A stretch of 64,000 nt of DNA from Streptomyces sp. SN-593 (lineage in GTDB: Bacteria > Actinomycetota > Actinomycetes > Streptomycetales > Streptomycetaceae): assembly GCF_016756395.1 (NCBI RefSeq), contig NZ_AP018365.1, positions 8,683,501 through 8,747,500 on the forward strand, in the 5' to 3' direction. Both the position numbers and the translations under genes were made by a program. The number at the start of each line of letters is the position of its first letter. The stretch's first letter is position 1. This document shows positions 15,481 through 64,000 of this stretch, piece after piece. The notes beneath the pieces were generated by a model. The model made no database searches. It was given only the letters and a program-made list of their open reading frames with translations, and was not told the DNA's origin.

Positions 15481-25415
<9,935 letters not shown>

Positions 25416-44624: not shown

Positions 44625-44656
44625 CGGAACCGGTCACGGAACCGGTTACGGTGACC
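44625..44656. promoter_or_regulatory. Direct/inverted repeat upstream of the T7SS promoter
   Basis: CGGAACCGGT occurs twice at a 12-base period (44625-44634, 44637-44646). The second copy is also the centre of an imperfect 25-base palindrome, from GGTCAC (44632) to GTGACC (44656). It ends 34 bases before the -35 box of the secretion operon, a position suited to an activator. Confidence 0.5.
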
Positions 44657-44690
44657 GCCCCGCGGCGCCCGGAAAGGAAAAGGGGGACTG

Positions 44691-44718
44691 TTGCAACGCG
44701 GGGGAGATTCCCTATAGT
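44691..44718 (+). promoter_or_regulatory. Sigma-70-type promoter of the T7SS operon
   Basis: TTGCAA (44691-44696) and TATAGT (44713-44718) with a 16-base spacer, close to the HrdB consensus. Predicted transcription start near 44725, giving a leader of about 40 bases to the TTG start of eccC. Confidence 0.65.
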
Positions 44719-44764
44719 CGCTGCCGTAACAAGTGGCATGCACACTGCACCGGGAGTCACCGCG

Positions 44765-47700
44765 TTGAGCATTAAGCCGGTGAAGCGTTCACCTCGTCGC
44801 GACGGGCCGCCCATGCCCGACGGTCAGGTCGAGCTCGCGGAGCCGCCGGTATTGGGCGAGCCCGCCGGCGCGGACTTCGGCTCGGCCCTGATGTACCTGC
44901 CGATGGGCCTCGGCGCCGGCGCCATGGTGCTGATGTTCAGCGTCCGCAGCATGGGCCCGACCACCTACATGATGTCCGGGATGATGGGCGTCGCCATGAT
45001 CAGCATGACGCTGACCCAGGTGGGCCGCAGCAGCGCCGAACGCCGCCGCCGGATGCGGGCCGAGCGCCGCGACTACCTCCGCTACCTCGCGCAGAAGCGC
45101 CGCCAGGCCCGCGCCGCCGCCGCCGAGCAGCGCGCCGCCCTGCTGTGGGACAACCCCGACCCGCGCGAGCTGTGGGCCTTCGCGATGGGACCACGGCTGT
45201 GGGAACGCCGCCCCAGCCACGACGACTTCGGCCGGGTCCGGATCGGCATGGGCATCCGCCGCGCCGAACTGGTCTTCCTGCCGCCCCAGACCAAGCCCGT
45301 CGAGGACCTCGAACCGCTCACCGCGATCTCGCTGCGCCGCTTCACCCGCGCCCACCAGACCGTCCCCGACCTGCCGATCCCGGTCGCGCTGCGCCGTTTC
45401 GCCCGGGTGGAGTTCGCCGGCGACGGCCAGGAGGCGCTGGCCCTGATGCGGGCGATGACCGCCCAGCTCGCGGTGCTGCACGCCCCCGACGAACTGCGCA
45501 TCGCCGTGCTCGGGAACACCGCCGCCCGCGCGGAGTGGGACTGGGTCAAGTGGCTGCCCCACAACGCCCACCCCGACGAGCAGGACGACGCCGGCGCGGT
45601 CCGGCTGGCCGCCGGCGATCACGACGAACTGATGGCGCTGCTCGGCCCCGACGTGCGCGACCGCCCCGACCACGACCCGGACGCCTCGCCCAACGTCACC
45701 GAGCCCTTCGTGGTGGTCATCGCGCAGGGCGTCCGGCTGCCCGACAGCTCGCGGCTGCTCCACGAGGGCCTGCGCAACACCCTGCTGCTCGACGCCACCG
45801 GCATGCTGCGCGGCGGCGACGACGTGCTGCGGCTGACCGTCCGCGACGGCACGGTCAGCTTCCCGGCCGGCGACGACGCCTCCGCCTCCGCGTCCGCCGA
45901 CGCGCTCAGCGCCACCGCCGCCGAGACGCTCGCCCGCGGCCTGGCTCCCCTGCGCACCGGCGGCAGCATCGACCTGACCGAACGCCCGCTGGAGTCCGAC
46001 TTCGACCTCACGTCGCTGCTGAACATCCGCGACCCGCGCACCTTCGACGTGAACGCCAAGTGGCGCCCCCGGCAGACCCAGTCGGCCCGGCTGCGGGTGC
46101 CGCTCGGCGTCACCGACGAGGGCGAGGTCGTGGAACTGGACCTCAAGGAGTCCGCGCAGGGCGGGATGGGCCCGCACGGCCTGCTCATCGGCGCCACCGG
46201 CTCCGGCAAGAGCGAACTGCTGCGCACCCTGGTGATGGGACTGGCCGCCACCCACTCCTCGGAGGTCCTGAACCTGGTCCTGGTCGACTTCAAGGGCGGC
46301 GCGACCTTCCTCAACATGGACCGCCTGCCGCACACCTCGGCGGTCATCACCAACCTCGCCGACGAGATCCACCTGGTGGACCGGATGCGGGACTCCATCA
46401 ACGGCGAGATGATCCGCCGTCAGGAACTCCTGCGCGAGTCCGGCTACTCCTCGCTGTTCGACTACGAGAAGGCCCGGATGGCCGGCGCCACCCTCGCGCC
46501 GCTCCCCTCACTGCTGATCATCGTGGACGAGTTCTCCGAACTGCTCGCCAGCAAACCGGAGTTCGTGGACCTGTTCGTGTCCGTCGGGCGGCTGGGCCGC
46601 AGCCTGGGCGTCCACCTGCTGCTCGCCTCCCAGCGGCTGGACGAGAGCCGCATCCACAAGGTGGAGGGCCACCTGTCCTACCGGCTGGCCCTGCGCACCT
46701 TCTCCTCCATGGAGTCCCGCAGCGTCATCGGCGTCTCGCACGCCTACGAACTGCCCTCCGCGCCCGGCAACGGCTACCTGAAGGTCGACACCACCAACCT
46801 CGTCCGGTTCAAGGCCGCCTACGTCTCCGGCCCGGCCCCCGAACCGGCCGCGGAGATCGACCCCGCCGAGCAGCAGCGCGCCGCCCAGGAGGTCACCGCC
46901 TTCGGGCTCGACCGCAGCGGCGAACTTCTCTCCGCGCGCGCCGAGGAGGCCGCGGCCCTGGCCGAGGCCGCCCGGGCGGCCGAGGAGAAGGCCCGCCCGA
47001 CGACCGGCCCCGACGGCGAACCGCTCACCGAGGAGAGCCTGCTGGAACTGCTGGTCGGCCGGCTGGAGGACGCGGGCCCGCCGGCCCGCCAGGTGTGGCT
47101 GCCGCCGCTGGACTCCTCCGTCAGCCTCGACCAGGTGCTGCCGGCGATCGTCCCGGACCCCGACCGCGGCATGAGCGCCGCCGACTACCCCAGGCTGGCC
47201 TCGCTGCGCTTCCCGCTCGGCATGGTCGACAAGCCCTACGAGCAGTCCCGCGACCTGCTCACCGCGGACCTGTCCGGCGCCGACGGCCACGTCGGCCTGG
47301 TCGGTGCGCCGCGCACCGGCAAGTCCACGATGCTGCGCACGATGATGATGTCGCTGGCCGTGACCCACACCCCGCAGGAGATCCAGTTCTACTGCCTGGA
47401 CTTCGGCGGCGGCGGCCTGGTCTCCACCTCCGGCCTCCCGCACGTCGGATCGGTCGCCACCCGCCTGGACCGGGACCGCGTGCACCGCACCGTCGCCGAA
47501 CTGACCCAGCTCCTGGAGCGCCGCGAGGCCGAGTTCGGCGCCCGCGGCCTGGAGTCCATGGCCGGCTACCGGGCGCAGCGCGCCGCCGGCGCGATCGAGG
47601 ACCCGTACGGCGACGTGTTCCTCGTGGTCGACGGCTGGGGCACGCTGCGCCAGGACTACGAGGACATCGAGCCGCGCGTCATCGACATGGCCGCCCGGGG

Positions 47701-48760
47701 GCTGTCCTTCGGCATCCACGTCATCGGCTCCGCGGTGCGCTGGTCGGAGTTCCGCCCCCGGCTGCGCGACCTGCTCGGCACCAAGTTCGAACTCCGGCTG
47801 GGCGACACCCTGGAGTCCGAGGTCGGCGCGCGCGCCGCCGCGGCGGTGCCGCACCAGCCCGGCCGCGGACTGACCTCCGGCGGACACCACTTCCTGGCCG
47901 CGCTGCCCCGCCTGGACAGCTCCCCGCACACGGAGGACCTCACCGCGGCCACCAAGGAGGCGGTCGCGGAGATCGACACCTTCTGGACCGGCCGGCCCGC
48001 CCCCGGCGTCCGGCTGCTGCCCAGCCGGCTGTCCACCGCCCAACTCCCGGCCGCGGAAGGCGACCTGCGGGTGTGCCTGGGCTGGGACGAGCAGCGCCTC
48101 GAACCGGCCTGGCACGACTTCGCCGCCCACCCCCACCTGATGGTCTTCGGCGACAGCGAGACCGGCAAGACCAACATGCTGCGGCTCATGGTCGACGCCA
48201 TCACCTCCCGCTACACCCCCGAGGAAGCCCGCATCATGGTCGCCGACCCCGGGCGCGGCCTGCTCACCGCGGTCCCCGAGGCCTACCGGGTCGGCTACGT
48301 CGTGGACAGCGAGGCGCTCGGCCAACTCGCCGCGAGCGCCGCGGTGTCGGTCGGCAAGCGGGTGCCGGCCGCCGACATCTCCCCGGAGAACCTGGCCCGC
48401 CGCGACTGGTGGAGCGGTCCGCTGCTGTTCGTGCTCATCGACGACTACGACCTGTTCTCCGGCACGCCCGGCGCCCCCTCCCCGATGACCCCGCTGGTGC
48501 CGCTGCTGGCCCAGGCCCCCCACATCGGGCTGCACCTGGTCGTGTGCCGCAGCACCTCCGGGGCGATGCGGGCGATGATGGACCCGGTGCTGCGCCGCCT
48601 GTGGGAACTGGGCAACCCGGCCCTGCTCTTCTCCTACCCGAAGGAGGAGGGCAAGTTCATCGGCGAGGCGAAGCCGCGCACCCTGCCGCCCGGCCGCGCC
48701 CAACTCGTCACCCGCCGCGCGGTCAAGCTCATGCAGACCGGACTGGTGGCCGCCGAGTGA
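44765..48760 (+). CDS. eccC: Type VII secretion ATPase EccC (FtsK/SpoIIIE family)
   Basis: 1331 aa from TTG 44765, chosen because GGGAG lies eight bases upstream and the product then begins MSIKPVKRSPRR, a usual EccC N-terminus; ATG 44738 is in frame but has no ribosome site. Two membrane helices (about residues 40-85) are followed by a charged stalk and three ATPase domains. Domain 1 has GATGSGKSE (about 475) and LLIIVDEFSELL and is the complete one. Domain 2 has GAPRTGKST (about 846) and VFLVVDGW. Domain 3 has GDSETGKTN (about 1128) and LLFVLIDDYD. It powers export of WXG100 substrates and binds their C-terminal signals. It heads the secretion operon. Confidence 0.96.
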   Translation: MSIKPVKRSPRRDGPPMPDGQVELAEPPVLGEPAGADFGSALMYLPMGLGAGAMVLMFSVRSMGPTTYMMSGMMGVAMISMTLTQVGRSSAERRRRMRAERRDYLRYLAQKRRQARAAAAEQRAALLWDNPDPRELWAFAMGPRLWERRPSHDDFGRVRIGMGIRRAELVFLPPQTKPVEDLEPLTAISLRRFTRAHQTVPDLPIPVALRRFARVEFAGDGQEALALMRAMTAQLAVLHAPDELRIAVLGNTAARAEWDWVKWLPHNAHPDEQDDAGAVRLAAGDHDELMALLGPDVRDRPDHDPDASPNVTEPFVVVIAQGVRLPDSSRLLHEGLRNTLLLDATGMLRGGDDVLRLTVRDGTVSFPAGDDASASASADALSATAAETLARGLAPLRTGGSIDLTERPLESDFDLTSLLNIRDPRTFDVNAKWRPRQTQSARLRVPLGVTDEGEVVELDLKESAQGGMGPHGLLIGATGSGKSELLRTLVMGLAATHSSEVLNLVLVDFKGGATFLNMDRLPHTSAVITNLADEIHLVDRMRDSINGEMIRRQELLRESGYSSLFDYEKARMAGATLAPLPSLLIIVDEFSELLASKPEFVDLFVSVGRLGRSLGVHLLLASQRLDESRIHKVEGHLSYRLALRTFSSMESRSVIGVSHAYELPSAPGNGYLKVDTTNLVRFKAAYVSGPAPEPAAEIDPAEQQRAAQEVTAFGLDRSGELLSARAEEAAALAEAARAAEEKARPTTGPDGEPLTEESLLELLVGRLEDAGPPARQVWLPPLDSSVSLDQVLPAIVPDPDRGMSAADYPRLASLRFPLGMVDKPYEQSRDLLTADLSGADGHVGLVGAPRTGKSTMLRTMMMSLAVTHTPQEIQFYCLDFGGGGLVSTSGLPHVGSVATRLDRDRVHRTVAELTQLLERREAEFGARGLESMAGYRAQRAAGAIEDPYGDVFLVVDGWGTLRQDYEDIEPRVIDMAARGLSFGIHVIGSAVRWSEFRPRLRDLLGTKFELRLGDTLESEVGARAAAAVPHQPGRGLTSGGHHFLAALPRLDSSPHTEDLTAATKEAVAEIDTFWTGRPAPGVRLLPSRLSTAQLPAAEGDLRVCLGWDEQRLEPAWHDFAAHPHLMVFGDSETGKTNMLRLMVDAITSRYTPEEARIMVADPGRGLLTAVPEAYRVGYVVDSEALGQLAASAAVSVGKRVPAADISPENLARRDWWSGPLLFVLIDDYDLFSGTPGAPSPMTPLVPLLAQAPHIGLHLVVCRSTSGAMRAMMDPVLRRLWELGNPALLFSYPKEEGKFIGEAKPRTLPPGRAQLVTRRAVKLMQTGLVAAE

Positions 48761-48935: not shown

Positions 48936-50336
48936 ATGACCAGTGCCTCCGTGGTTCCCGCCGCAGGGACCGGCACCGAGGTGTGCCGGGTGACCGTCGT
49001 CGGCCCCGGCGGCCAGGCCGACCTCGCCATCCCCGTCACGCTGCCGGTGTCCGCCCTGCTGCCCGTCCTCGTGGAGCACGTCGTCTCCGACGTCCGCGAC
49101 CGCGGCGCGCCGTGGTCGCTCCAGCGCCTGGGCGAGTCCCCCCTCGACCCCGACGGCACCCCCGCCGGGCTCGGCCTGCACCACGGCGACGTGCTGTACC
49201 TGCGCCCCGTCGAGGAGCCGCTGCCCACCCTGCACTTCGACGACGTCGCCGACGGCGTCGCCCACGTCGTCGGCTCGCTGCCCGGCCGCTGGCGGCCGGA
49301 GCTGACCCGCGCGCTGGCCCTGACCATGGGCGCGCTCGCCCTCGTCTTCCTCGCCCTCGCCCTGCTCAGCGACGGTCCCGGCGACTTCGCCGGCTACGGC
49401 TCGGGCATCGCCGCCGTGCTGTTCGCCGCGGCGAGCGTCACCGGCGCCCGGCTCGACGCCGACCCGGCCGCCGTGCTGACCGCCGGCATCGCCTCGATGG
49501 CCATGGCCGCGCTCGCCGGACTGTCCTTCCGCACCGGCCCGGGAGGCGGCTTCGACCCGGGCGTGGCCGGCCTGCTGGTCACCGCCGGCTGCGTCACCGC
49601 CGTGGCCGTCGCGCTCGTCGCGCTGCGCGCCACGCCCTTCCTGGTACCCGGCACCGCGGCCGTCGTGGCCGCCTCCGTGGCCGCCGCCATCGGACTGCGC
49701 GCCGCCTTCGACTGGCGGACCGGCCAGGCCGTCGCCGTGGTCGGCGTCGGCCTGTTCGTCCTCGGCCACTTCGCGCCCCGGCTCACGCTGCGCGCCGCCC
49801 GGCTGCGGGTCCCCCAACTCCCGCACAACGCCGCCGAACTGCAGGAGGACGTGGAGCCCGAGCCGCAGGAGCGGGTGGAACGCCGGGTGCGGGCCGCCAC
49901 CTCCTACCTGGACGCCCTCAGCGTCGGCTTCGCCATCGCCTTCGGCGTCGTCTTCTGGTTCATGGTCCACGAACACGGCTGGATCGGCTGGGCACTGCCG
50001 CTCGTGTTCGGCGGCGCGGTGCTGCTGCGCTCCCGCGGCCTGACCGGAACCCTCCAGCGGGTGCCCACCGTCATCGCCGCCGGCGGCGGCCTCGCGCTGC
50101 TCCTCCTCCAGCAGTGGACCACCGGCGGCCCCGGCCAGCGCGGCACCGCCGTCGCGCTTCTCGCGCTGACCGTCGTCGCCCTGCTGGCAGCCGCCTGGCG
50201 GCTGCCCTCCAGCCGGCTGCTCCCGGTGTGGGGCCACAGCGGCGACATCACCGAGATGCTCGTCGCGATGGCCCTGCTGCCCCTGCTCCTCCAACTCCTG
50301 CACGTCTACTCGCACCTGCGCGAGATGACGAGCTGA
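48936..50336 (+). CDS. eccD: Type VII secretion membrane protein EccD
   Basis: 466 aa from ATG 48936 (AGGAG upstream). Residues 1-95 form a ubiquitin-like domain (CRVTVVGPGGQADLAIP...LHHGDVLYLRP). From about residue 125 there are some eleven hydrophobic helices, interrupted by one cytoplasmic loop (about 290-325) with acidic and Arg residues. This is the layout of EccD, the central channel-like component of ESX systems. The 175 bases between it and eccC contain no gene. Confidence 0.95.
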   Translation: MTSASVVPAAGTGTEVCRVTVVGPGGQADLAIPVTLPVSALLPVLVEHVVSDVRDRGAPWSLQRLGESPLDPDGTPAGLGLHHGDVLYLRPVEEPLPTLHFDDVADGVAHVVGSLPGRWRPELTRALALTMGALALVFLALALLSDGPGDFAGYGSGIAAVLFAAASVTGARLDADPAAVLTAGIASMAMAALAGLSFRTGPGGGFDPGVAGLLVTAGCVTAVAVALVALRATPFLVPGTAAVVAASVAAAIGLRAAFDWRTGQAVAVVGVGLFVLGHFAPRLTLRAARLRVPQLPHNAAELQEDVEPEPQERVERRVRAATSYLDALSVGFAIAFGVVFWFMVHEHGWIGWALPLVFGGAVLLRSRGLTGTLQRVPTVIAAGGGLALLLLQQWTTGGPGQRGTAVALLALTVVALLAAAWRLPSSRLLPVWGHSGDITEMLVAMALLPLLLQLLHVYSHLREMTS

Positions 50337-50370: not shown

Positions 50371-51714
50371 ATGCAGACCCGACGGGACCACGTCCAGGCG
50401 TACCAGTTCGCCGTCGGCCGCCTGGCCACCGCGCTCGTCAGCGGCGACCCCGGCCGCGGCGACAGCCCCACCCGCCGCGCCTCGCTCGGCACCTTCTTCG
50501 GCGTGGGCGTCGTCATCCTGCTCTGCGTGGGCTTCGGCGTCTACGGCCTCATCGCGCCCGCCCCCGACCACTCCTGGCGCGCCTCCGGGGCGTACATCGT
50601 GGAGAAGGAGACCGGCAACCGCTACCTGTACGCCGGCGGCGAGCTGCACCCGGTCCGCAACTACGCCTCGGTACGGCTGCTCGCCGGCAACGCCACCGCC
50701 CACAACGTCTCCCGGCAGGACCTCGCCGGCATCCCGCACGGTGCCGCGATCGGCATCCCCGGCGCCCCCGACGAGGTCCCCGCCCCCGCCGACGTGCTCG
50801 GCAACGCCTGGACCCTCTGCCTGCGGCCGCAGCTCGCCGGGGGGCTGAGCCTCGACTTCAGTCCCGCCGGCCACACCGCCGCCGTCCCCGCCGGCCGGCA
50901 GGCCCTGCTGGCCGGTCCCGACGGCACGCGCTACCTGCTGTGGAAGGGCACCACCTACCGCGTCCCGGACCAGGCGACGCTGGTCGCGCTCGGGCTGGAC
51001 ACCGACCGGCAGATCGCCGCCCCCGCCGACTGGCTCGCCGATCTGCCGACCGGGCGCGCGCTCACCGCGGTCCGCCCCGCCGGACTGGGCACGCCCGCCG
51101 GCAAGGTCGCCGACCACGCCGTCACCGTCGGCCAGTTGTTCACCACGACCACCACCACCGCCGGCGCGCGCCACTACTACGTGATGACCAAGGCCGGCGT
51201 CGCCCGCACCACGGCGACCGAGTCCGCGCTGCTCGCCGCGCAGCCCCACGTCCCCGCACCGCTCCAGGTGCCCTCCTCCGCGCTGGCCGCCGTCCAGCTC
51301 GCCAGCGACCCCGACATGGCCGGCGCGCTGCCCGACGTGGCCGGCGCGCCCGCGATGTCCACCGACGGGCAGGCGGTGTGCCTGGCCCAGCGCGTCGACG
51401 GCGCCACGCTGGGCACGCAGGTCGTCGTCGAGACCGGCGCCGCCGCCACCGGCAGCCGCTCCGTCGTCGTGCCACCCGGCCATGGCGTGGTGGCCCGCAG
51501 CCGCGAGGAGGCGCTGAAGAAGGTCACCCACCCCAGGACCTACCTCATCACCGACGACGGCACCGCCTACCCGCTGGCCGACGACGACGCCACCGCCGCA
51601 CTCGGCCTGTCCGGCCTGGTCTCCTTGCTGCCCGACGACGTGATCTCCCTGCTGCCGACCGGCCCCGTCCTGTCCAAGCCAGGCTCCACCGGCGGAGGAG
51701 GCAGCGGTGTTTAG
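50371..51714 (+). CDS. eccB: Type VII secretion protein EccB
   Basis: 447 aa from ATG 50371 (GAGAGGAGGAA upstream). It begins with the typical MQTRRDHVQAYQFAVGRL segment, then a single membrane helix (about residues 40-62) and a large extracytoplasmic part with repeated beta-rich elements (AYIVEKETGNRYLY, DGTRYLLWKG, AYPLADDDA). A Gly-rich tail ends it. EccB is a core membrane component of the ESX complex. It overlaps the next gene by 8 bases. Confidence 0.95.
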   Translation: MQTRRDHVQAYQFAVGRLATALVSGDPGRGDSPTRRASLGTFFGVGVVILLCVGFGVYGLIAPAPDHSWRASGAYIVEKETGNRYLYAGGELHPVRNYASVRLLAGNATAHNVSRQDLAGIPHGAAIGIPGAPDEVPAPADVLGNAWTLCLRPQLAGGLSLDFSPAGHTAAVPAGRQALLAGPDGTRYLLWKGTTYRVPDQATLVALGLDTDRQIAAPADWLADLPTGRALTAVRPAGLGTPAGKVADHAVTVGQLFTTTTTTAGARHYYVMTKAGVARTTATESALLAAQPHVPAPLQVPSSALAAVQLASDPDMAGALPDVAGAPAMSTDGQAVCLAQRVDGATLGTQVVVETGAAATGSRSVVVPPGHGVVARSREEALKKVTHPRTYLITDDGTAYPLADDDATAALGLSGLVSLLPDDVISLLPTGPVLSKPGSTGGGGSGV

Positions 51715-54700: not shown

Positions 54701-56095
54701 GTGCCTGCGACGGCTGCTGGTCCCGCGCCGGTTGCCGCGCCGCCCGCGCCGCCGCTTGTCCCGGAGCCGTCGGGCGCCGTACCGACCGCCCCGCCCGCCC
54801 CGACCGCCGTGTCCCCAGGGACAGGGGGCCCGGGCTCGCCCGCCGCACCGACGGCGGGGGTGGACCCGGCGGAGCCCGCGCCGGCCACCGGTGCCGGCGT
54901 CGTACCGCCCGAGCCGGGTGCGATGCCCGCTGCAAGCGGCTCGCCGGCCGCCGCGCCGGCGCCCCCGGCCGTACCGCCCGCGCCGAAGGCCGCGCCCGTC
55001 GCGCCGCCGACCGCCGCGGCGCGGCCGGCCGGGCTGCGGCTGGAATCCGCGTGGTCCTACCCGGCGGCCCCCGCTCCCGCCCCCGTTCCGGCTCCGGTCC
55101 CCGCCGCCCCCGAACCGGCGGTCGCCGCGGACCCCTTGGCGCCGCGCGGGCCCGCCGCACCCTCGACGCGGCCCACCGCCGTACCGGCGGCCACCGCACC
55201 CACCACACCTGCGGCACCCGCCTCCGCGGCAGCGCCCGGCGTGCGGGTGCAGCCCGTGCCGAAGGGCGCGGCCTGCGCGGTGCCGCCCGAGCGCGGGATC
55301 GAGCGGGAGCGGGACTGGGTGCGCAAGACGTTCCGGGCGCAGTACGACGTGGCCGCGGGCACCGTCTCCCGGGTGATGTCGGAGGTGCCGGGGCTGCGCA
55401 GCGCGAGCCGGGAGAAGGCGACGGACGCGCTGATCGACCTCGTCGCCGTCCGCCTGTACCTGACCGGGAACAGCGCGGGCGTGGACGCGTCGGTGCGCGC
55501 CGCGCGGGTCGGGCCCCACGTGCCGCTCGCGCGCTGCGTGGCCTCGGGGCTGCGCCGGCTGCCGTCGTACCGGGGCACCGCCGTGCTGCACGCGGAACTG
55601 ACGGACGCGGAGCGCGCCTGGTACCGGGACGGGCGGCTGGTGACGGAGTGGTCCTTCTGCCCCGCCCTGGCGGCGCCCGCCGCGGACCGGGTGCCGGGAG
55701 CGCGGTTCGTGGTGTGGTCGATGACGGCACGGCGCACCGGGCTGCTCGACGCCACCGCGCCGGACCAGGTGGTGTTCCTGCCCGGCACCACCTTCAAGGT
55801 GCTGCGCCCGGCCGCGTCGGCGGACGAGCCGGTGCTCATCCGCGAGATGGCGGCGACCGAGATCGGCGCGGACGGGCGGGTCGCGCCCGGGCGGTCGGCG
55901 CTGGACGACCTCGCCCTGGAGAGCCTGGAGCGGGCCGTCGCCGCCCTGCCGAAGGAGCCCGGCGCGGCGGACGCCGACCAGCCGTGGACGCCGCGGAACC
56001 CGCCCGGCCTGATGGCCTCGGCGCCCCGGCAGGGCGCCGCGACCGGGACGAACGCGCCCGCGCAGGGCGCCCCTCACAAGGGAGCGACGCTGTGA
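51707..56095 (+). CDS. Large T7SS-linked protein with Pro-rich middle and ART-like C-terminal domain
   Basis: 1462 aa from GTG 51707 (GGAGGAGG upstream), overlapping eccB. Three parts are visible. Residues 1-460 form globular domains without a motif I can name (FRSIRSLLPPGPALQCRP start). Residues about 460-1190 are an Ala/Pro/Val/Gly-rich, low-complexity linker with an 18-bp triplicated repeat near 54174-54222. Residues about 1195-1420 form a conserved domain (RDWVRKTFRAQYDVAAGTVSR...). That domain has an order reminiscent of bacterial ADP-ribosyltransferases: YRGTAVLH, EWSFCPALA, then VVFLPGTTFKVL; the Glu-x-Glu before VVF is replaced (APDQ), so it would be non-catalytic if related. No signal peptide or membrane helix. 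Its place between eccB and the EccA-like gene implies a role in the secretion machine. Function unknown. Confidence 0.8.
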   Translation: MFRSIRSLLPPGPALQCRPVGDALLLQPKGRNDQAAWRFTGALARDDQHTVVVVDVPGIPPDTAADAMARALSDSGGSLRLVFGNGTSAEIRRAGQRISEELGKVVVVPDGEVLPTAGGGLYIPGGHGSGWLRLRPGRPVEHDSMGFPKPRWQFSMMDRPWATSPYAVVEPLPCGVWVRGALPDGADDNRLRLFGLIAVDPDVMTVVLGCPGGPAVPLADVVRFWETVMPSTRSRVRFVHFGPVALPQEGEALGQQLADALDHQVVLYTGMGDDDATTAAPRTGAADRGARGANGSAAYGTSEQGGAPGGADHATGPSTFVRELLYTPRGTDIAPPPALAGVREPLPGFQPVAPGVYEYAFDAVLEVVQSGLWMRPQSEPADGDDVRRIAAVPGDRLFLYHRGSPELAARMRALAEDALWRLGADARSDFILRPADDPAVDTGAWYAEPIAVSDPQEAVTAAIPPTTRPAGTAPWTPVTVGAPAVGTADDDVAVAGEAAGSDGVAGVDDAEGTRSGGAQEGAGVPAALGPAPAAASDTGAANAFQAEVWASAAEDLSAPAPSPASASRAPAVAPSSPRPVGALTAGLALPTGWAASMPTESSETVAPSAAAAPTAAEASATAAPLAVPAVSGPAPDGVVEGEHATAAGAEGVSTATAGATAGPALAGGGLPPTGGAGAVPTVPTGRAGSGDDGGGEDGGDEPERSERAEPEAGETEAAERGAPEPAAEDVPLPDAEPEPERDPRLEAVERDGRAVERAVEQGGRADESGGRADGLPGEPAPPVPPHLAENPAPGTVPAAPYAPPSVRRLPLPLAHPTTIFPPSSDGPPSSDGPASSDGPAAPDAAPVPAPAPVAALPTPGPAPIPSGSGPATPSPGGPTAVPLVPAAAAPVPPAGPSLVPPVPPTPPAPVPPTAVVPAPGPSAAVPPPVSPSGAALLGPEAVSGSAPGGSAPPAAPTAVPSGAVGSPPVVPPSPAQPVPGPPAEAAPGAPAAPSGPTAVPATAAGPAPVAAPPAPPLVPEPSGAVPTAPPAPTAVSPGTGGPGSPAAPTAGVDPAEPAPATGAGVVPPEPGAMPAASGSPAAAPAPPAVPPAPKAAPVAPPTAAARPAGLRLESAWSYPAAPAPAPVPAPVPAAPEPAVAADPLAPRGPAAPSTRPTAVPAATAPTTPAAPASAAAPGVRVQPVPKGAACAVPPERGIERERDWVRKTFRAQYDVAAGTVSRVMSEVPGLRSASREKATDALIDLVAVRLYLTGNSAGVDASVRAARVGPHVPLARCVASGLRRLPSYRGTAVLHAELTDAERAWYRDGRLVTEWSFCPALAAPAADRVPGARFVVWSMTARRTGLLDATAPDQVVFLPGTTFKVLRPAASADEPVLIREMAATEIGADGRVAPGRSALDDLALESLERAVAALPKEPGAADADQPWTPRNPPGLMASAPRQGAATGTNAPAQGAPHKGATL

Positions 56096-59000
56096 ACCGG
56101 CAAGTGCTTGTGGTCTCCCCGGACCGGCCCGGCGCGTACCGGACGCTGACGGAGGCGCTCGCGGACGCCGCCGAGGGCGCGCTGATCACCGTGGGCCCCG
56201 GCCGCTACGAGGAGGCCCTGCACCTCGTGCGCACGGTCACCCTGGCGGCCGACGGAGCCGGCGGGACCGCCCACGTGCACGCCCCGGCGGGCAGCACCGT
56301 CGTCGTGGACGCGGAGGCCGTGCAGATGTCCGGGCTGCTGCTGAGCGGCGCCGACCCGGAGGCGCCGGTGCTCGACGTGCGCCGCGGCCAGGCCGCGCTG
56401 GACGGCTGCCGGGTGGCGGGCGAGGCGTGGACGGCGGTCCTGGCGTGGGACGCCGGCACCGTGGCGCTGCGCGACTGCCAGGTCACCAACCCCCGCGGTG
56501 CCGGTGTGGTGCTGACCTCCGGCGGCGGCAACGTGGTGGAGCGCACCACCGTCTCCGAGGCCGGCTCCTCCGCCGTGGTGGTGGCCGAGCAGGGCCGGCT
56601 GACGCTCCGTTCGTCGGTCCTGGACCGCGCGGCGGGCAACGGGCTGTGCGTCAACGGGCGCGGCGCCGTCGTCGTGGAGGCCACCCGGATCACCGGCAGC
56701 GGCAAGCCCGCCCTGGCCGTGGAGCAGGACGCCCGGGCCGAACTGAGCCGTGTCGAGGTGTCCGGCAGCTCCGGCCTGGACGCGTACCTGGCCAGTACCG
56801 CGGGCGCGACGCTGGCCGAGTGCACCTTCACCGGTTCGCGGGGCGAGTCGGTGTACGTCAAGGAGTGCGCGCCGGTCCTGCGCGACTGCGTGATCACCGG
56901 GGCGGCGCAGGTCGGACTGCACGCGGCGGCCGGCGGCCGGCCGGTGCTGGAACGGTGCCGGATCGAGGACACCCCGGTCGGCGTGCTGACCGAGGACGGC
57001 GCCGAGGTGACCGCCACCGAACTGGCGGTGCGCGCCGCCGGGACCGCCGCCCTGCGGCTGGGCGGCGGCGCGGCGCGGCTGACCCGGTTGGCGGTCGCCG
57101 ACGGCGGCACCGCCGTACAGGCGCTCGGCGGCGCCCGGCTGGACATCGACGAGGGCGACGTCTCCGCCACCGGGACCGCCGGCATCGAGCTGGGGGAGCG
57201 GGTGCGCGCCCGGCTGTCCGAGCTGCGGCTGCGGGTCGGCGGCGGCACCGCCCTCGCGCTCGCCGACTCCGCGCACGCCGAGCTGGACGCCGCCACCGTG
57301 GAGGGCGGCACCGTCCTCATCGGCACGGACAGCGAACTGACCGCCCGGGACAGCGAGTTCCGCGGCTCCGAGCAGGACGGCCTGCGGGTGGCCGGCGGCA
57401 CCCTCACCGCGGTCGGCTGCCGGGTGCACGGCGCGCGCGGCGACGGCGTGCACATCGCCGCCAACTCCCGCGCGGAGCTGACCAACTGCACCGTCTTCGA
57501 CAACACCGGCGAGGGCATCCGCTCGCAGACCGCCGAGCCGGTCGGCGTGCACGACTGCGAAGTGCGCGACAACTCCGGTCCGCCCGGGCGCCGTCCGGGC
57601 GACGGCCGTCCGGACACGGACGGCAGGGAGCTGACCGCGACCGCCGCGGACGGCGGCGGCGCCGGCGGACCCGGCCCGGCCTCGTACAGCGGCAGCGCGA
57701 CCGGCGCCGGACCGCTGGCCGAACTCCAGTCCCTGGTCGGCCTGGAGAGCGTCAAGCGCGAGGTCACCGGACTGATCGACCTCAACAAGATGACCAAGCG
57801 GCGGATGGAGATGGGCCTGCCCATGCCGCCGATGAGCCGCCACCTGGTCTTCGCGGGCCCGCCCGGCACCGGCAAGACCACCGTCGCCCGCCTGTACGGC
57901 GCGGTGCTCGCCGAACTCGGCATCCTGCGCCAGGGCCACATCGTGGAGGTGGCGCGGGCCGACCTCGTCGCGCAGATCATCGGCGGCACCGCCATCAAGA
58001 CCACCGAGGTCTTCACCAAGGCCCTCGGCGGCGTGCTCTTCATCGACGAGGCGTACACCCTGACCAACCAGTCCCGCGGCTCGGGACCGGACTTCGGCCA
58101 GGAAGCCGTCGAGACGCTGATGAAGCTGATGGAGGACCACCGCGACGAGATCGTGGTCATCGTCGCCGGCTACTCCGCGCAGATGGACCAGTTCCTCGCC
58201 TCCAACCCCGGTATGGCGTCCCGGTTCGCGCGGACCATCGAGTTCCCGAACTACGAGCCCGACGAACTCGTCACCATCGTCCGCGGGTTGTGCGGCAAGC
58301 ACTACTACGAGCTGGACGACGGCGCGCTGGAGGCGCTGACCCGCTACTTCGTCGAGGTTCCCAAGGGCGACACCTTCGGCAACGGCCGCGTGGCCCGGAA
58401 GATCTTCGAGGAGATGATCGGCCGCCAGGCCAGCCGGCTGTCCGCCCAGTCCCACCAGGACGACAGCGCGCTGAGCGTCCTGACCGGCGAGGACGTGACC
58501 GAGGTGCCCGGCACCCCCGGCGCCGGCGAGAGCGAACCCGAACTGCCCGAACTGCCGGGCCTGCGACGGCTTGCCGCCATGACCGGCCTGGACACCGCCC
58601 GAGCGGCGCTGCGCACCCGGCTGCGCGCCCTGGCCGCCGCCCAGCAGCGGTCCGGCTCCCGGCCCGAAGCGCTCTCCGCCCGCGCCAACGTCGTGCTCGA
58701 GGGCCCGCCCGGCAGCGGCCGCCGCGCGCTGGCGGCCCTCTACGGGCGCTGCCTGGCCGAGCTGGGGCTGCTGCCCACCGGCGCCACCCGCCACGTCCGG
58801 CTGTCCTCGCTGCCCGCCCGCTGGCCCGAACAGCCGCTGCTGCGCCTCGCGTCGGCTCTGGAGGAGAACGCCGGCGGCCTGCTGGTCCTGGAGTGGACCG
58901 AGGCGTTCGAGCAGCGCAGCCCGCAGTCCCGGGAGGCCGTGCTGAGCGCCCTCGCGCGGATCGTCGCCGTGCCCGGCGACACCGTGCTCGCGCTCATCGG

Positions 59001-59412
59001 CACCCCCGAGCACCTGATCGGCCTGATGCGCGAACGCACCGACATCGCGCAGGGGTTCGCCGAGTACGCCCGCCTGGAGCCGTACACGCCCGAGCAGACC
59101 GTGGAACTGGTCCGGCGCCGGCTGCGTGGCTACGGCTTCCAGATGGACGAGGACGTCGCCCAGGCACTCGCGGAGACCTTCGGCCGCTCGCCCGAGCCGG
59201 CCGGCGCGCACCGCGCCCACCGGCTCGCCGAGAGCCTGGCGGCGAGCGCCCGCGCCCGCACCGTCACCACCGGCGACCTGCCCCGGCAGGCGCCCGAGCA
59301 GGCCGCGGTGCTCGCCCCGGACGAGAGCGCGCCGACGCCGGGGGAGCCCCCGGCCGCGCCCCCGCCCCCCGAACCCCCGTACCAGCGGCCCGAACCGCTG
59401 GCCCGGCTGTGA
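56092..59412 (+). CDS. Beta-helix / AAA+ ATPase fusion, EccA-like
   Basis: 1106 aa from GTG 56092, overlapping the previous stop as GTGA, with AAGGGAG upstream. Residues about 1-510 are a right-handed parallel beta-helix: repeated short strands such as GNGLCVNGRGAVVVEATRI and DGVHIAANSRAELTNCTVF. Then comes a CbxX/EccA-type AAA+ domain (about 545-800) with GPPGTGKTT (about 589), GVLFIDEAYTL and FARTIEF. A second AAA+ domain (about 830-1080) is decayed: GPPGSGRRA has Arg for the Walker Lys, and LLVLEW replaces the Walker B Asp-Glu. Mycobacterial EccA has a TPR domain in place of the beta-helix. It is cytosolic and probably acts on the WXG100 proteins encoded next. Confidence 0.92.
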   Translation: MNRQVLVVSPDRPGAYRTLTEALADAAEGALITVGPGRYEEALHLVRTVTLAADGAGGTAHVHAPAGSTVVVDAEAVQMSGLLLSGADPEAPVLDVRRGQAALDGCRVAGEAWTAVLAWDAGTVALRDCQVTNPRGAGVVLTSGGGNVVERTTVSEAGSSAVVVAEQGRLTLRSSVLDRAAGNGLCVNGRGAVVVEATRITGSGKPALAVEQDARAELSRVEVSGSSGLDAYLASTAGATLAECTFTGSRGESVYVKECAPVLRDCVITGAAQVGLHAAAGGRPVLERCRIEDTPVGVLTEDGAEVTATELAVRAAGTAALRLGGGAARLTRLAVADGGTAVQALGGARLDIDEGDVSATGTAGIELGERVRARLSELRLRVGGGTALALADSAHAELDAATVEGGTVLIGTDSELTARDSEFRGSEQDGLRVAGGTLTAVGCRVHGARGDGVHIAANSRAELTNCTVFDNTGEGIRSQTAEPVGVHDCEVRDNSGPPGRRPGDGRPDTDGRELTATAADGGGAGGPGPASYSGSATGAGPLAELQSLVGLESVKREVTGLIDLNKMTKRRMEMGLPMPPMSRHLVFAGPPGTGKTTVARLYGAVLAELGILRQGHIVEVARADLVAQIIGGTAIKTTEVFTKALGGVLFIDEAYTLTNQSRGSGPDFGQEAVETLMKLMEDHRDEIVVIVAGYSAQMDQFLASNPGMASRFARTIEFPNYEPDELVTIVRGLCGKHYYELDDGALEALTRYFVEVPKGDTFGNGRVARKIFEEMIGRQASRLSAQSHQDDSALSVLTGEDVTEVPGTPGAGESEPELPELPGLRRLAAMTGLDTARAALRTRLRALAAAQQRSGSRPEALSARANVVLEGPPGSGRRALAALYGRCLAELGLLPTGATRHVRLSSLPARWPEQPLLRLASALEENAGGLLVLEWTEAFEQRSPQSREAVLSALARIVAVPGDTVLALIGTPEHLIGLMRERTDIAQGFAEYARLEPYTPEQTVELVRRRLRGYGFQMDEDVAQALAETFGRSPEPAGAHRAHRLAESLAASARARTVTTGDLPRQAPEQAAVLAPDESAPTPGEPPAAPPPPEPPYQRPEPLARL

Positions 59413-59498: not shown

Positions 59499-59834
59499 AT
59501 GGCACTGACATCAGTCGAACTGCAGGGAATGACCGCCGCCCAGGGCACCTTCCAGACCGCCCTGGACGACGGCGCCACCTCCTACGCCCAGATGGCCGGC
59601 CAGATCGACGGCCTGCGCGGTAGCTGGACCGGTGACGCCTCCACCATCTACGGCAACGCCATGCAGGCGTGGCTGGACGACTTCAACAAGGTGAACCAGG
59701 CGCTGCGGACGATGCTGGAGAAGCTCCAGCAGAACACGAACGTCTACGCGAACACCCACGAGGAGACCCAGCAGACCGCCAACCAGGTCGCGCAGAACAT
59801 CGCGTCCGGCGTCACCAGCCTGCCCGGTTTCTGA
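59499..59834 (+). CDS. WXG100 family protein (Esx-type substrate)
   Basis: 111 aa from ATG 59499, with GAGAGGAC upstream. It is two amphipathic helices around the SWTG turn (WXG motif), length and pattern of EsxA/EsxB proteins. No Cys and no signal peptide. It follows the EccA-like gene by 86 bases and precedes a second WXG protein, with which it may form a secreted heterodimer. The C-terminus lacks an obvious YxxxD/E signal. Confidence 0.92.
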   Translation: MALTSVELQGMTAAQGTFQTALDDGATSYAQMAGQIDGLRGSWTGDASTIYGNAMQAWLDDFNKVNQALRTMLEKLQQNTNVYANTHEETQQTANQVAQNIASGVTSLPGF

Positions 59835-59966
59835 GCCGCGCGCTCGGACCTCCCGGCGGCCGCGACGCGCCGGCGGCCCCGGCACCGCCGGGTGCCGGCA
59901 GGCGTGCCCCGCACCGCCCCGCACCGCCCGACAGCCCGTTCCACCCTCTTCCTCCAAGGAGCCCCC

Positions 59967-60254
59967 GTGGCGACGTACACCGTCCAGATGGAGCAGGTCG
60001 ACGTGATCGTCGGCGAGATGAACGCCATCACGCAGCGCATCAACCAGGCCCTCCAGGACCTCGACAACCAGGCCAAGGTCAACCTCGCCGAGTGGACCAG
60101 CGACGCGCAGGCCACCTACGCGCAGGTCAAGGCGCAGTGGGACGCCGCTGCGGCGGACATGACGCAGAAGGCGGCCCTGGCCACCCAGCAGCTCGGCAGC
60201 ATCAACGAGTACTACTCCCAGGGCGAGCGCGCGGGCGTCCAGCTCTGGGGCTGA
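59967..60254 (+). CDS. WXG100 family protein with WTS turn
   Basis: 95 aa from GTG 59967 with CCAAGGAG five bases upstream; longer starts at 59892 lack a ribosome site. Two amphipathic helices flank EWTSDA, where Ser stands for the Gly of WXG. The C-terminal part contains YYSQGE. It is likely the partner of the protein at 59499 and is followed after 6 bases by the next gene, so the two are translated together. Confidence 0.9.
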   Translation: MATYTVQMEQVDVIVGEMNAITQRINQALQDLDNQAKVNLAEWTSDAQATYAQVKAQWDAAAADMTQKAALATQQLGSINEYYSQGERAGVQLWG

Positions 60255-60968: not shown

Positions 60969-63900
60969 ATGGGCGACACCGACTACGACAGCAACGGGTT
61001 CAACCAGGGCGACGACGGGTCGATCTACGGCGACCCGACCGCGACCGGCTCCATCTCCGACTACGACAGTTGGGACTGGAAGCAGATCGAGGCCGCGATC
61101 CGCGGCATGTCGGCGGGCGTGAGCAACTCCGACAACCTCGACCACGCCGCCTCCGTCGCGTCGCCCCAGACCCTCCAGGACGCGGCGAACGTCTTCTACC
61201 ACGTCCAGGTGGTGCTGTCGGGTGTCGCCAAGGCCCTCCAGGACCAGGCCAAGGCGCTCGCCGGCGACGACGGCCCGTGGAAGGGCGACGCCGCCGACGC
61301 CTTCTACGACATGATGAGCACCTTCTCCAAGCAGGTCGCCGCGACCGCCGACGTGCTGTCCGGGGGCACCAGCGGCTCCGGGAACTCCGTGCCGCAGCAA
61401 CTGGCGGACAACGCCGTCAACCTGACGAACGCGCAGAACAAGATCGGCGAGATCGACGCCTGGTACGCCCACCAGGCGACCCTGATGGGCGTCACGCCGA
61501 TGAGCAACGGCCTGATCCCGGTCAGCAAGAAGCCCGAGCTGGTCCAGATGCTCAACCACGACATGCGCCAGGTGCTGAAGAACCTGGCCGCCGACTACCA
61601 GGTCACCATCGACTCGGTCCGGCCACCCGGCACCATCACCGGCCCCGGCCCCGGCGACACGCCGCCGGTCGACGAGCCGCCCCCGGACGACACGGGCGCG
61701 GACGACTCCATCGGCGACGTCACCCCCGCCGACCTGGCGCGTCTGGCCAACACCGACGGCCCGGCCCTGGACGCGCAGGCACCGGACGCGCTGACCAGCG
61801 CCGACGGCTTCACCCCGACCGGCGACGCCCTCGCGCCGACGCCGTACTCCGGCAGCCTGGACAGCAACGGGCCCGGATCGGGCCTGGGCGACGGCAGCGG
61901 ACTCGGGGACGGCTCCGGCCTCGGCGGGCTGGGCGACAACAGCACGCTGGACCCCAACGCGCTGGACAGCGCGCTCAACCCCGCGTCCTTCGACGGCGGT
62001 ACGGGAGTGGACGGCGCCGGCGGGCTCGGCGACGACGGCGGGTTGGGCGGACTGGGCGGGCTGACCCCCAACGCGCTGCTGTCCCGCAGCGCGACGCCGT
62101 CGGCCTTCGACGGCGGTACGGGAGTGGACGGCGCCGGCGGGCTCGGCGACGACGCCGGGCTCGGCGGACTGGGCGGCCTGACCACCACCCCCTCGGCCTT
62201 CGGCGGGGGCACCGGTCTGGACGGCACGGGCGACCTGCCCGAGTCCGACCTCGCCGAGGACCCGAGCACCTGGAAGGACGGGGCGACCGCCACCGACTTC
62301 CCCGGCGACACCGGCATCGGCGGCACATCGGGCCTGGGAGCCGACAGCGGCCTCGGGGACGAGGCGGGTCTCGGCGGGCTCGGCGACCTCAAGAGCGTCT
62401 CGCCGTCCGCCTTCCCGGGGTCCACCGCCACCGGCGGCTCGGTGCCCAACGCGAGCGACCTCGGACTGGAGTCCGACACGCCCGGCTTCAGCCCCTCCGC
62501 CTTCCCCGGCTCCACCGGCCTGTCCGCCGCCGGCTCCGGCCTCACCGGCGGGACCGGTAGCGGAATGCCGTTGATGCCGGGGATGGGTGGGGGTGCGCAG
62601 TCGGCGCAGGGTGGGTTGGATCGTAGCGATGCGTCGGGGTTGTTGGATCCGGAGGCGGAGCCGTGGGCGGGGGATGCGGATACGGCGGGGGAGGGGTTGT
62701 TGCCGTCGGGTGGTGTGCCGGTGGGTGCGGATGGGGGGTTGGATCTGCCGGGGTTCGAGCCGTCGGAGTTCCCTGGTTCGTCGGAGTTGGGTGGTGAGGC
62801 CGCGGGTGTGGGCGGTGTGGGGAGTGGGATGCCGTTGATGCCGGGGATGGGTGGGGGTGCGCAGTCGGCGCAGGGTGGGTTGGATCGTAGTGATGCGTCG
62901 GGGTTGTTGGATCCGGAGGCGGAGCCGTGGGCGGGGGATGCGGATACGGCGGGGGAGGGGTTGTTGCCGTCGGGTGGTGTGCCGGTGGGTGCGGATGGGG
63001 GGTTGGATCTGCCGGGGTTCGAGCCGTCGGAGTTCCCTGGTTCGTCGGAGTTGGGTGGTGAGGCCGCGGGTGTGGGCGGTGTGGGGAGTGGGATGCCGTT
63101 GATGCCGGGGATGGGTGGGGGTGCGCAGTCGGCGCAGGGTGGGTTGGATCGTAGTGATGCGTCGGGGTTGTTGGATCCGGAGGCGGAGCCGTGGGCGGGG
63201 GATGCGGATACGGCGGGGGAGGGGTTGTTGCCGTCGGGTGGTGTGCCGGTGGGTGCGGATGGGGGGTTGGATCTGCCGGGGTTCGAGCCGTCGGAGTTCC
63301 CTGGTTCGTCGGAGTTGGGTGGTGAGGCCGCGGGTGTGGGCGGTGTGGGGAGTGGGATGCCGTTGATGCCGGGGATGGGTGGGGGTGCGCAGTCGGCGCA
63401 GGGTGGGTTGGACCGCAGCGATGCGTCCGGGTTGCTCGACCCGACGGCGGAGCCGTGGACCGGCGACGCCGACACGGCGGACGGCGACATCGAGGCGGCC
63501 GGGACCGTACCCGGTGGGCAGGGGCGGCTCGACCTGCCCGGCACCGGGGCGGAGGAGGAGACGGCGGCGGCCGCACCGGACGCGGAACCCGGCATGATGA
63601 TGCCGGGGACAGGCGGGGTGCCGGGCGGCGCAGCGGGCCGGGAGGACGGCGTGTCCTCCGACGCCTCCGGGCTGCTGGCCCCCAGCGCGGACCCGTGGAC
63701 GGACGAGGGCGCGCCGGACCCGGAAGCGGCGGGCACCGCCCTGTCCGCCCCCGGCACGGGCGCCCTGTCCGGGCTGACGACCGGCGCAGACGGCGGCACG
63801 GGAGCCGCTCCCGCACCGTCCGCGGCCGAAGGCGACGAGTCCGGTGGCACCGCGTCCGAGGGTTTCGCCGTGCCCGCGGCGGCCGAGGCGTCGGCCGTAC

Positions 63901-64000
63901 CGGCCGCGGCCCCGTTCCTGCCGATGGGCGGCTCGGGGGCTCCCGCGGGGACCGGCCGCGGGGACGACGACGACCGCGGCACGCTCGTGGAGCCGACCGG
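60969..64000 (+). CDS. Very large WXG-domain T7SS protein with Gly/Asp-rich repeats (runs off the right edge)
   Basis: ATG 60969 with GGAGGA upstream; 1010 codons are visible and the frame is still open at the edge. The first 220 residues are an all-helical WXG-superfamily domain with GPWKGDAADAF (Trp104) and MMSTFSKQVAATAD. From about 225 on it is Pro/Asp- then Gly/Leu/Asp-rich, with short repeats such as SAFDGGTGVDGAGGLGDD. Three near-identical 88-residue units (bases 62559-63350), a fourth that diverges and a degenerate fifth follow. The unit contains GMPLMPGMGGGAQSAQ, LDRSDASGLLDPEAEPW and FEPSEFPGSSE. Near the edge, FLPMGGSGAPAG followed by acidic residues resembles C-terminal ends of actinobacterial T7SS proteins, so the stop is probably close. 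It is a likely secreted substrate or surface protein. Confidence 0.88.
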   Translation, partial: MGDTDYDSNGFNQGDDGSIYGDPTATGSISDYDSWDWKQIEAAIRGMSAGVSNSDNLDHAASVASPQTLQDAANVFYHVQVVLSGVAKALQDQAKALAGDDGPWKGDAADAFYDMMSTFSKQVAATADVLSGGTSGSGNSVPQQLADNAVNLTNAQNKIGEIDAWYAHQATLMGVTPMSNGLIPVSKKPELVQMLNHDMRQVLKNLAADYQVTIDSVRPPGTITGPGPGDTPPVDEPPPDDTGADDSIGDVTPADLARLANTDGPALDAQAPDALTSADGFTPTGDALAPTPYSGSLDSNGPGSGLGDGSGLGDGSGLGGLGDNSTLDPNALDSALNPASFDGGTGVDGAGGLGDDGGLGGLGGLTPNALLSRSATPSAFDGGTGVDGAGGLGDDAGLGGLGGLTTTPSAFGGGTGLDGTGDLPESDLAEDPSTWKDGATATDFPGDTGIGGTSGLGADSGLGDEAGLGGLGDLKSVSPSAFPGSTATGGSVPNASDLGLESDTPGFSPSAFPGSTGLSAAGSGLTGGTGSGMPLMPGMGGGAQSAQGGLDRSDASGLLDPEAEPWAGDADTAGEGLLPSGGVPVGADGGLDLPGFEPSEFPGSSELGGEAAGVGGVGSGMPLMPGMGGGAQSAQGGLDRSDASGLLDPEAEPWAGDADTAGEGLLPSGGVPVGADGGLDLPGFEPSEFPGSSELGGEAAGVGGVGSGMPLMPGMGGGAQSAQGGLDRSDASGLLDPEAEPWAGDADTAGEGLLPSGGVPVGADGGLDLPGFEPSEFPGSSELGGEAAGVGGVGSGMPLMPGMGGGAQSAQGGLDRSDASGLLDPTAEPWTGDADTADGDIEAAGTVPGGQGRLDLPGTGAEEETAAAAPDAEPGMMMPGTGGVPGGAAGREDGVSSDASGLLAPSADPWTDEGAPDPEAAGTALSAPGTGALSGLTTGADGGTGAAPAPSAAEGDESGGTASEGFAVPAAAEASAVPAAAPFLPMGGSGAPAGTGRGDDDDRGTLVEPT
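62559..63411 (+). repeat. 264-bp in-frame tandem repeats
   Basis: Units start at 62559, 62823 and 63087 and are almost identical at base level (one visible C/T difference in the Asp-Arg-Ser-Asp segment). A fourth starts at 63351 and matches until about 63411, then drifts. The unit is a multiple of three, so copy number can change without breaking the gene. Codons are G/T-ending (GTG, GGT, TTG, GAT), unlike the flanks. Recent amplification is the natural explanation. Confidence 0.92.

Follow-up and report, generated by a model that had tools for sequence, protein, structure and literature searches.

The 264-bp tandem array in a type VII secretion (ESX) locus gene of Streptomyces sp. SN-593 is very probably a tandem GRINS-like element, in which the copies have been homogenised and recoded towards keto bases (G and T) on the leading strand of replication, following a rule common to duplicated polyketide synthase (PKS) DNA. 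The stretch analysed, referred to here as the window, is the 64,000 nucleotides of contig NZ_AP018365.1 (assembly GCF_016756395.1) from 8,683,501 to 8,747,500, forward strand. Coordinates are window positions unless stated otherwise.

The array is in frame and has a unit of 264 bp (88 amino acids), with three near-identical copies at 62559-63350 and a partial fourth extending to ~63425. TRF reports 3.5 copies at 62565-63480, with a 97% match and a score of 1720. Three near-identical units had been described in a first-pass annotation made from the sequence alone, and the description holds: copies 2 and 3 are identical and copy 1 differs from them at only three sites (62561 C/T, 62564 A/G and 62627 C/T), at all of which it has C or A where the inner copies carry T or G. 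The run of exact identity at a shift of 264 is 62628-63148 (521 bases). The units, with the fraction of C at third codon positions (C3) and the matches of a hidden Markov model (HMM) of the unit where given, are as follows.

62559..62822, + strand: G/T-recoded unit 1, the left edge copy, which departs from units 2 and 3 at three sites, all amino-type.
62823..63086, + strand: G/T-recoded unit 2, identical to unit 3.
63087..63350, + strand: G/T-recoded unit 3, identical to unit 2.
63351..63464, + strand: unit 4, a mosaic boundary, with the first ~60-75 bases G/T-recoded, then ordinary codons for the same motif (from the sequence; unit HMM 63357-63464, C3 0.22).
63597..63701, + strand: unit 5 core (SSDASGLLAPSADPW), ordinary codons, C3 0.43 (unit HMM).

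Within the array, third codon positions have the composition G 0.71, C 0.05, A 0.00 and T 0.24, whereas C stands at 0.62-0.66 in the preceding part of the gene, so the codon style is, as had been noted, unlike that of the rest of the gene. Four-fold degenerate sites are G 0.72, T 0.22 and C 0.06, leucine is encoded by TTG, and the GC and TA skews are +0.53 and +0.43. The G/T style stops within unit 4, where the motif LDRSDASGLLDP.AEPW.GDADTA continues in ordinary C-ending codons; ordinary, C-rich codons make up the latter half of unit 4 and the whole of unit 5, and these match the ordinary-codon units found in most orthologs. Because the unit 4 motif carries on in this manner, the right-hand units, which had been taken for decayed copies, are unrecoded neighbours and not decayed forms of the left copies.

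The ortholog set consisted of ~60 relatives of the array gene, one genome per species, in which units were located using a profile of the unit. A search for the 88-aa unit in other genomes had been proposed in the first-pass annotation; nearly all of these relatives contain between 1 and 7 copies, which shows the unit to be a long-standing component of the gene family. Homogenised units number 4, 3, 2 and 2 in the four closest species, and each species has its own sequence version, so the units evolve in concert. The expansion and contraction suggested earlier are thereby supported between species. Orthologs encode the unit with ordinary, G/T or C/A codons, and the coding strands of homogenised arrays are either neutral to strongly G/T-rich or strongly C/A-rich. 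The C/A style is exemplified by a paralog in the same genome, at 2.08 Mb, where C makes up 0.95 of four-fold sites, leucine is CTC in 20/20 cases and the ratio of A-ending to G-ending Glu, Gln and Lys codons is 19:0 in the array versus 11:46 in the flank. The recoding of homogenised copies runs along one axis, amino (C, A) versus keto (G, T) bases, and affects synonymous sites as well as some non-synonymous ones. In the ESX family, the more alike the copies are, the stronger the skew (Spearman 0.61, p=1.4e-6, n=53). In one ortholog, L077 (G049), the single unit is written in strongly C/A-type codons (keto 0.10), and its sister L080 has a two-copy C/A array; the single unit is possibly the leftover of a contracted array.

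The sign of the recoding follows replication orientation, which was judged with dnaA as the origin marker. Delta was defined as the keto excess of the array over its flank on the coding strand. The pattern came from the first nine clear arrays, where G/T arrays are co-directional with replication and C/A arrays head-on. Four later arrays from near-complete genomes fitted the rule (L111 and L114 head-on with negative delta, L112 and L113 co-directional with positive delta), and for two arrays on fragments the orientation was predicted in advance, head-on for L027 and co-directional for L089. Synteny with complete genomes then placed both accordingly, on the assumption that each contig is collinear between the gene and the searched piece. 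The sister arrays L089 and L114 differ in both orientation and sign. Delta ranges from -0.02 to +0.55 in 13 co-directional arrays and from -0.38 to -0.09 in 6 head-on arrays, such that the two groups are fully separated (exact Mann-Whitney p=3.7e-5, orthologs treated as independent). These data show that the G/T-rich strand is the leading strand of replication, so that co-directional genes have a G/T-rich coding strand and head-on genes a C/A-rich one; the polarity tracks the leading strand, not the coding sense. The encoded protein also varies with orientation, as codons for Gly, Val, Leu (TTG), Phe, Trp and Cys account for 39% in co-directional versus 25% in head-on arrays, and those for Pro, Thr, His, Gln, Asn and Lys for 17% versus 34%. 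Part of this amino-acid shift may come from differing ancestral sequences.

The arrays of L114 and L115 (G476 and G591) have at least six highly similar units and an intermediate keto content, though L114 is head-on. Such an array might be in transit after an inversion.

The same rule was found in PKS genes, using 37 stretches in which the coding strand was set by a PKS protein match; the longest open reading frame is unsuited as a label for the coding strand, as some stretches, the array included, have long antisense frames. Among windows with a duplicate of at least 85% identity, the co-directional ones show coding-strand GC/TA skews of +0.23/+0.27 (2522 strongly positive windows, 14 negative) and the head-on ones -0.28/-0.18 (32 positive, 508 negative). 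By cluster, the skew is positive in 7/7 co-directional and negative in 4/4 head-on cases. Single-copy PKS windows have no orientation difference (-0.020/+0.058 co-directional versus -0.008/+0.051 head-on), which ties the rule to duplication and rules out ordinary chromosomal skew as its cause. In G095, where both gene orientations occur in one cluster, the coding-strand skews are opposite and the same chromosomal strand is G/T-rich.

Four-fold sites in the PKS set shift in a graded and mirrored manner from single-copy DNA to copies of 80-90% identity and to those above 90%. Between the first and the last of these classes, co-directional genes go from G 0.43 to 0.62, T 0.03 to 0.15 and C 0.51 to 0.22, and head-on genes from C 0.47 to 0.69, G 0.45 to 0.23 and A 0.04 to 0.06. 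At two-fold sites, T in NAY codons rises from 0.05 to 0.35 in co-directional genes and A in NAR codons from 0.18 to 0.48 in head-on genes. The main net change at four-fold sites is therefore the exchange of C and G, with transitions second.

Two papers (PMC10394414, PMC9899208) describe GRINS as ~1 kb DNA segments that share more than 80-90% identity with a further region of their own gene and have GC and TA skews above 15-25%, in which the protein is recoded and gene conversion is suspected. The papers describe them as common in actinobacterial PKS genes, where they are believed to accelerate polyketide antibiotic diversification, and as less often reported from phyla such as cyanobacteria and firmicutes (PMC10394414). 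The array has at least 500 bp with more than 80% identity inside the same gene or cluster (97% match by TRF), its mean GC and TA skews exceed not only 0.15 but 0.25, and it consists of a recoded conserved segment with apparent conversion between copies. The host is an ESX-locus gene and not an assembly-line PKS gene, hence the term GRINS-like; an established type of element is here found at an unusual location. The abstract of Nivina et al. (PNAS, 2021), the founding GRINS paper, reportedly calls the molecular origin of GRINS unknown and is also said to place them in other gene families, so a PKS location may not be defining. A literature search for papers tying GRINS to the replication strand, which did not extend to that paper, found none; as far as the literature searched shows, the founding paper apart, the leading-strand rule is unreported.

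The window contains a second GRINS-like patch, and the resemblance in style between it and the array had been pointed out in the first-pass annotation.

20231..21580 (1350 bp), + strand: GRINS-like patch in a polyketide-synthase AT segment (skew scan; GC skew +0.37, TA skew +0.43).

Between 8.626 and 8.683 Mb, the same chromosome carries 11 further copies of the patch at 74-89% identity (DNA search of the genome against itself). At the threshold used, the patch and the array are the sole positive-sign skewed segments above 300 bp in the window.

In the mechanism we propose, recombination associated with the fork, by gap repair, template switching or unequal exchange, would pass sequence between the copies, and a strand-biased heteroduplex or repair step would cause conversion tracts to gain keto bases on the leading strand. 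The outcome would be an amino-to-keto drive, biased by replication strand and made up mostly of G:C to C:G changes, and the same exchanges would expand and contract copy number. It is possible, although we hold it only tentatively and think it unlikely, that GRINS arise by strand-biased gene conversion shaped by the actinobacterial mismatch endonuclease NucS, the gene for which is present in this genome, driving amino to keto changes on the leading strand of recombining repeats. Heteroduplexes of one fork polarity would then be destroyed, or repaired otherwise than those of the other polarity. Cyanobacteria and firmicutes mostly rely on MutS/MutL. GRINS are reported from both phyla in PMC10394414, which counts against a role for NucS. 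The Streptomyces enzyme cleaves G/T, G/G and T/T but not A/C mismatches (PMC11109965), and in mycobacteria NucS restrains recombination between diverged sequences (PMC8228993). As these substrates are the keto-keto class, NucS would give a keto/amino axis including C:G exchange; the direction of the change requires a further assumption as to which strand invades.

The recoding could instead stem from strand-asymmetric replication errors alone, if synthesis during repeat recombination escaped mismatch repair and the leading-strand A>G and C>T errors were spread by unbiased conversion, an account that we regard as doubtful. Mutation-accumulation lines of Streptomyces ambofaciens without NucS do have, on the leading strand, A>G at ~3x T>C and C>T over G>A (PMC11109965), and the NAY and NAR shifts at two-fold sites in PKS copies are these same transitions. 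Neither deamination nor raw replication errors are sufficient, however, because both yield transitions and the main change is C<->G: the net four-fold change is mainly C to G in PKS copies, and the four-fold sites of L032 are nearly pure C, which transitions alone cannot produce. An asymmetry linked to transcription, such as that from R-loops that leave the coding strand exposed, would render that strand G/T-rich, in agreement with the finding that most of the skewed arrays and PKS clusters are co-directional, with positive skew on the coding strand. Head-on members of both the gene family and the PKS set reverse the coding-strand sign with the leading strand still G/T-rich, and G095 has both arrangements, which makes this explanation highly improbable.

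Selection on codons or translation, or else a foreign source for the unit, could account for an odd style that is limited to the array and unlike its flanks, yet these are scarcely credible given that orthologs use ordinary, G/T or C/A codons, that the style switches inside unit 4 and that two paralogs in the same genome have opposite styles. The orthologs carrying the unit in ordinary codons rule out a foreign origin, and the mirror-image recoding in head-on genes rules out codon selection together with transcription-linked skew. The flanks of G/T and C/A arrays look alike. No coding-strand codon preference or transcription-linked process can produce the mirror-image recodings of these arrays. 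An assembly artefact also deserves almost no credence: the 521-bp run of exact identity could mislead copy counting, and the copy number here is taken from the assembly and not from reads, yet the contig is 8.83 Mb long and related species, some with single-contig assemblies, have their own homogenised arrays of different sequence.

Several observations weigh against strand-biased conversion along the leading strand. The conversion and its strand bias are deduced from sequence, and dnaA is only a proxy for oriC. Orthologs share ancestry, so the p-values overstate their independence, and the tree requires 3-5 changes of orientation. Five co-directional homogenised arrays (L063, L065, L068, L091 and L092) have near-zero delta, and orientation consequently permits but does not force the skew. 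In the PKS set, the head-on cluster G105, with copies at 80-85%, is neutral, and the 32 positive windows among head-on duplicated DNA go against the rule. In the head-on genes of G095 (C1, 6.69-6.91 Mb), positive coding-strand skew is found in 8% of head-on duplicated windows; these could derive from recent conversion from co-directional copies of the same cluster.

The array gene is situated downstream of two WXG100 genes in an ESX locus with EccC, EccD, EccB and an EccA-like ATPase, and the upstream neighbourhood is conserved among orthologs.

44651..48757, + strand: EccC-type FtsK/SpoIIIE ATPase of the ESX locus (Pfam PF01580, E=5.9e-89).
48936..50333, + strand: EccD (Pfam PF19053, E=1.9e-72).
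50371..51711, + strand: EccB (Pfam PF05108, E=2.6e-75).
55051..59409, + strand: EccA-like AAA ATPase, preceded in one open frame by right-handed beta-helix repeats, start codon uncertain (Pfam PF13229, PF00004, PF17866).
59499..59834, + strand: WXG100 protein (PF06013 39.9 bits, TIGR03930 50.3 bits, each above cut-off).
59892..60254, + strand: WXG100 protein (PF06013 30.2 bits, above cut-off).
60969..64000, continuing beyond the window end to window-equivalent ~64635, + strand: array gene, encoding a WXG-like type VII locus protein of 1222 aa (ATG behind GGAGGA; open frame to the stop in L023; ortholog search).
61161..61358, + strand: WXG100-like domain with PWKG (Pfam PF06013, E=1.5e-4, 22.4 bits versus a cut-off of 27.3; TIGR03930, 21.7 versus 44.85).

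The protein had been called a WXG secretion substrate. Its place beside ESX core genes is in keeping with this and suggests a secreted substrate, but its WXG100 domain does not reach the curated thresholds of PF06013 and TIGR03930. Its probable role is that of a substrate or spacer associated with the ESX system, and it has a repetitive region rich in Gly and Asp. A sequence search with its N-terminal region for a similar solved structure found none. At 61984-62187 the gene contains two further direct repeats of 87 nt, imperfect (93% identical) and at a spacing of 117 bp, which are in ordinary codons, unlike the recoded array.

Just downstream of the array gene and beyond the window is an open frame of 4057 codons (L215:2118-14291, window-equivalent ~65618-77791), which begins with a WXG100-like domain (PF25547, E=2.4e-20) and has no further Pfam match; its product is a candidate giant ESX substrate. 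A glycosyl hydrolase family 59 (galactocerebrosidase-like) gene with a C-terminal lectin domain, at 41229-43298, adjoins the ESX locus.

If the leading-strand rule is new, it narrows the origin of GRINS to a process that senses replication direction, counts against codon selection and transcription, and makes a clear prediction for any repeat in any orientation. A gene flipped relative to the fork would over time alter the amino-acid make-up of its repeats, and if the NucS proposal were true, gene orientation to the fork would steer that composition. The type VII gene family, with short units, ~60 relatives, both orientations and every degree of homogenisation, is a good model, and it makes the open question of GRINS origin testable.

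Like GRINS, the array exceeds the identity and skew thresholds and recodes a protein segment. It differs in its head-to-tail tandem arrangement and in its host, a gene of a type VII locus whose orthologs form a graded series across the family. Its analysis adds the leading-strand polarity and, for head-on genes, the mirror-image C/A form. Tandem-repeat length variation in surface and secreted proteins similarly involves in-frame, near-identical units with copy number varying between species (here counted in one genome per species), but the recoding and the strand rule are outside that picture. The leading/lagging GC and TA skews of chromosomes have the same sign, with the leading strand richer in G and T, whereas the effect in the array is much stronger and confined to duplicated DNA, and the single-copy DNA of the PKS clusters does not show it. 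As in biased gene conversion, recombination between copies spreads a directional change; the axis proposed here is keto versus amino on one strand, and not simply G+C versus A+T.
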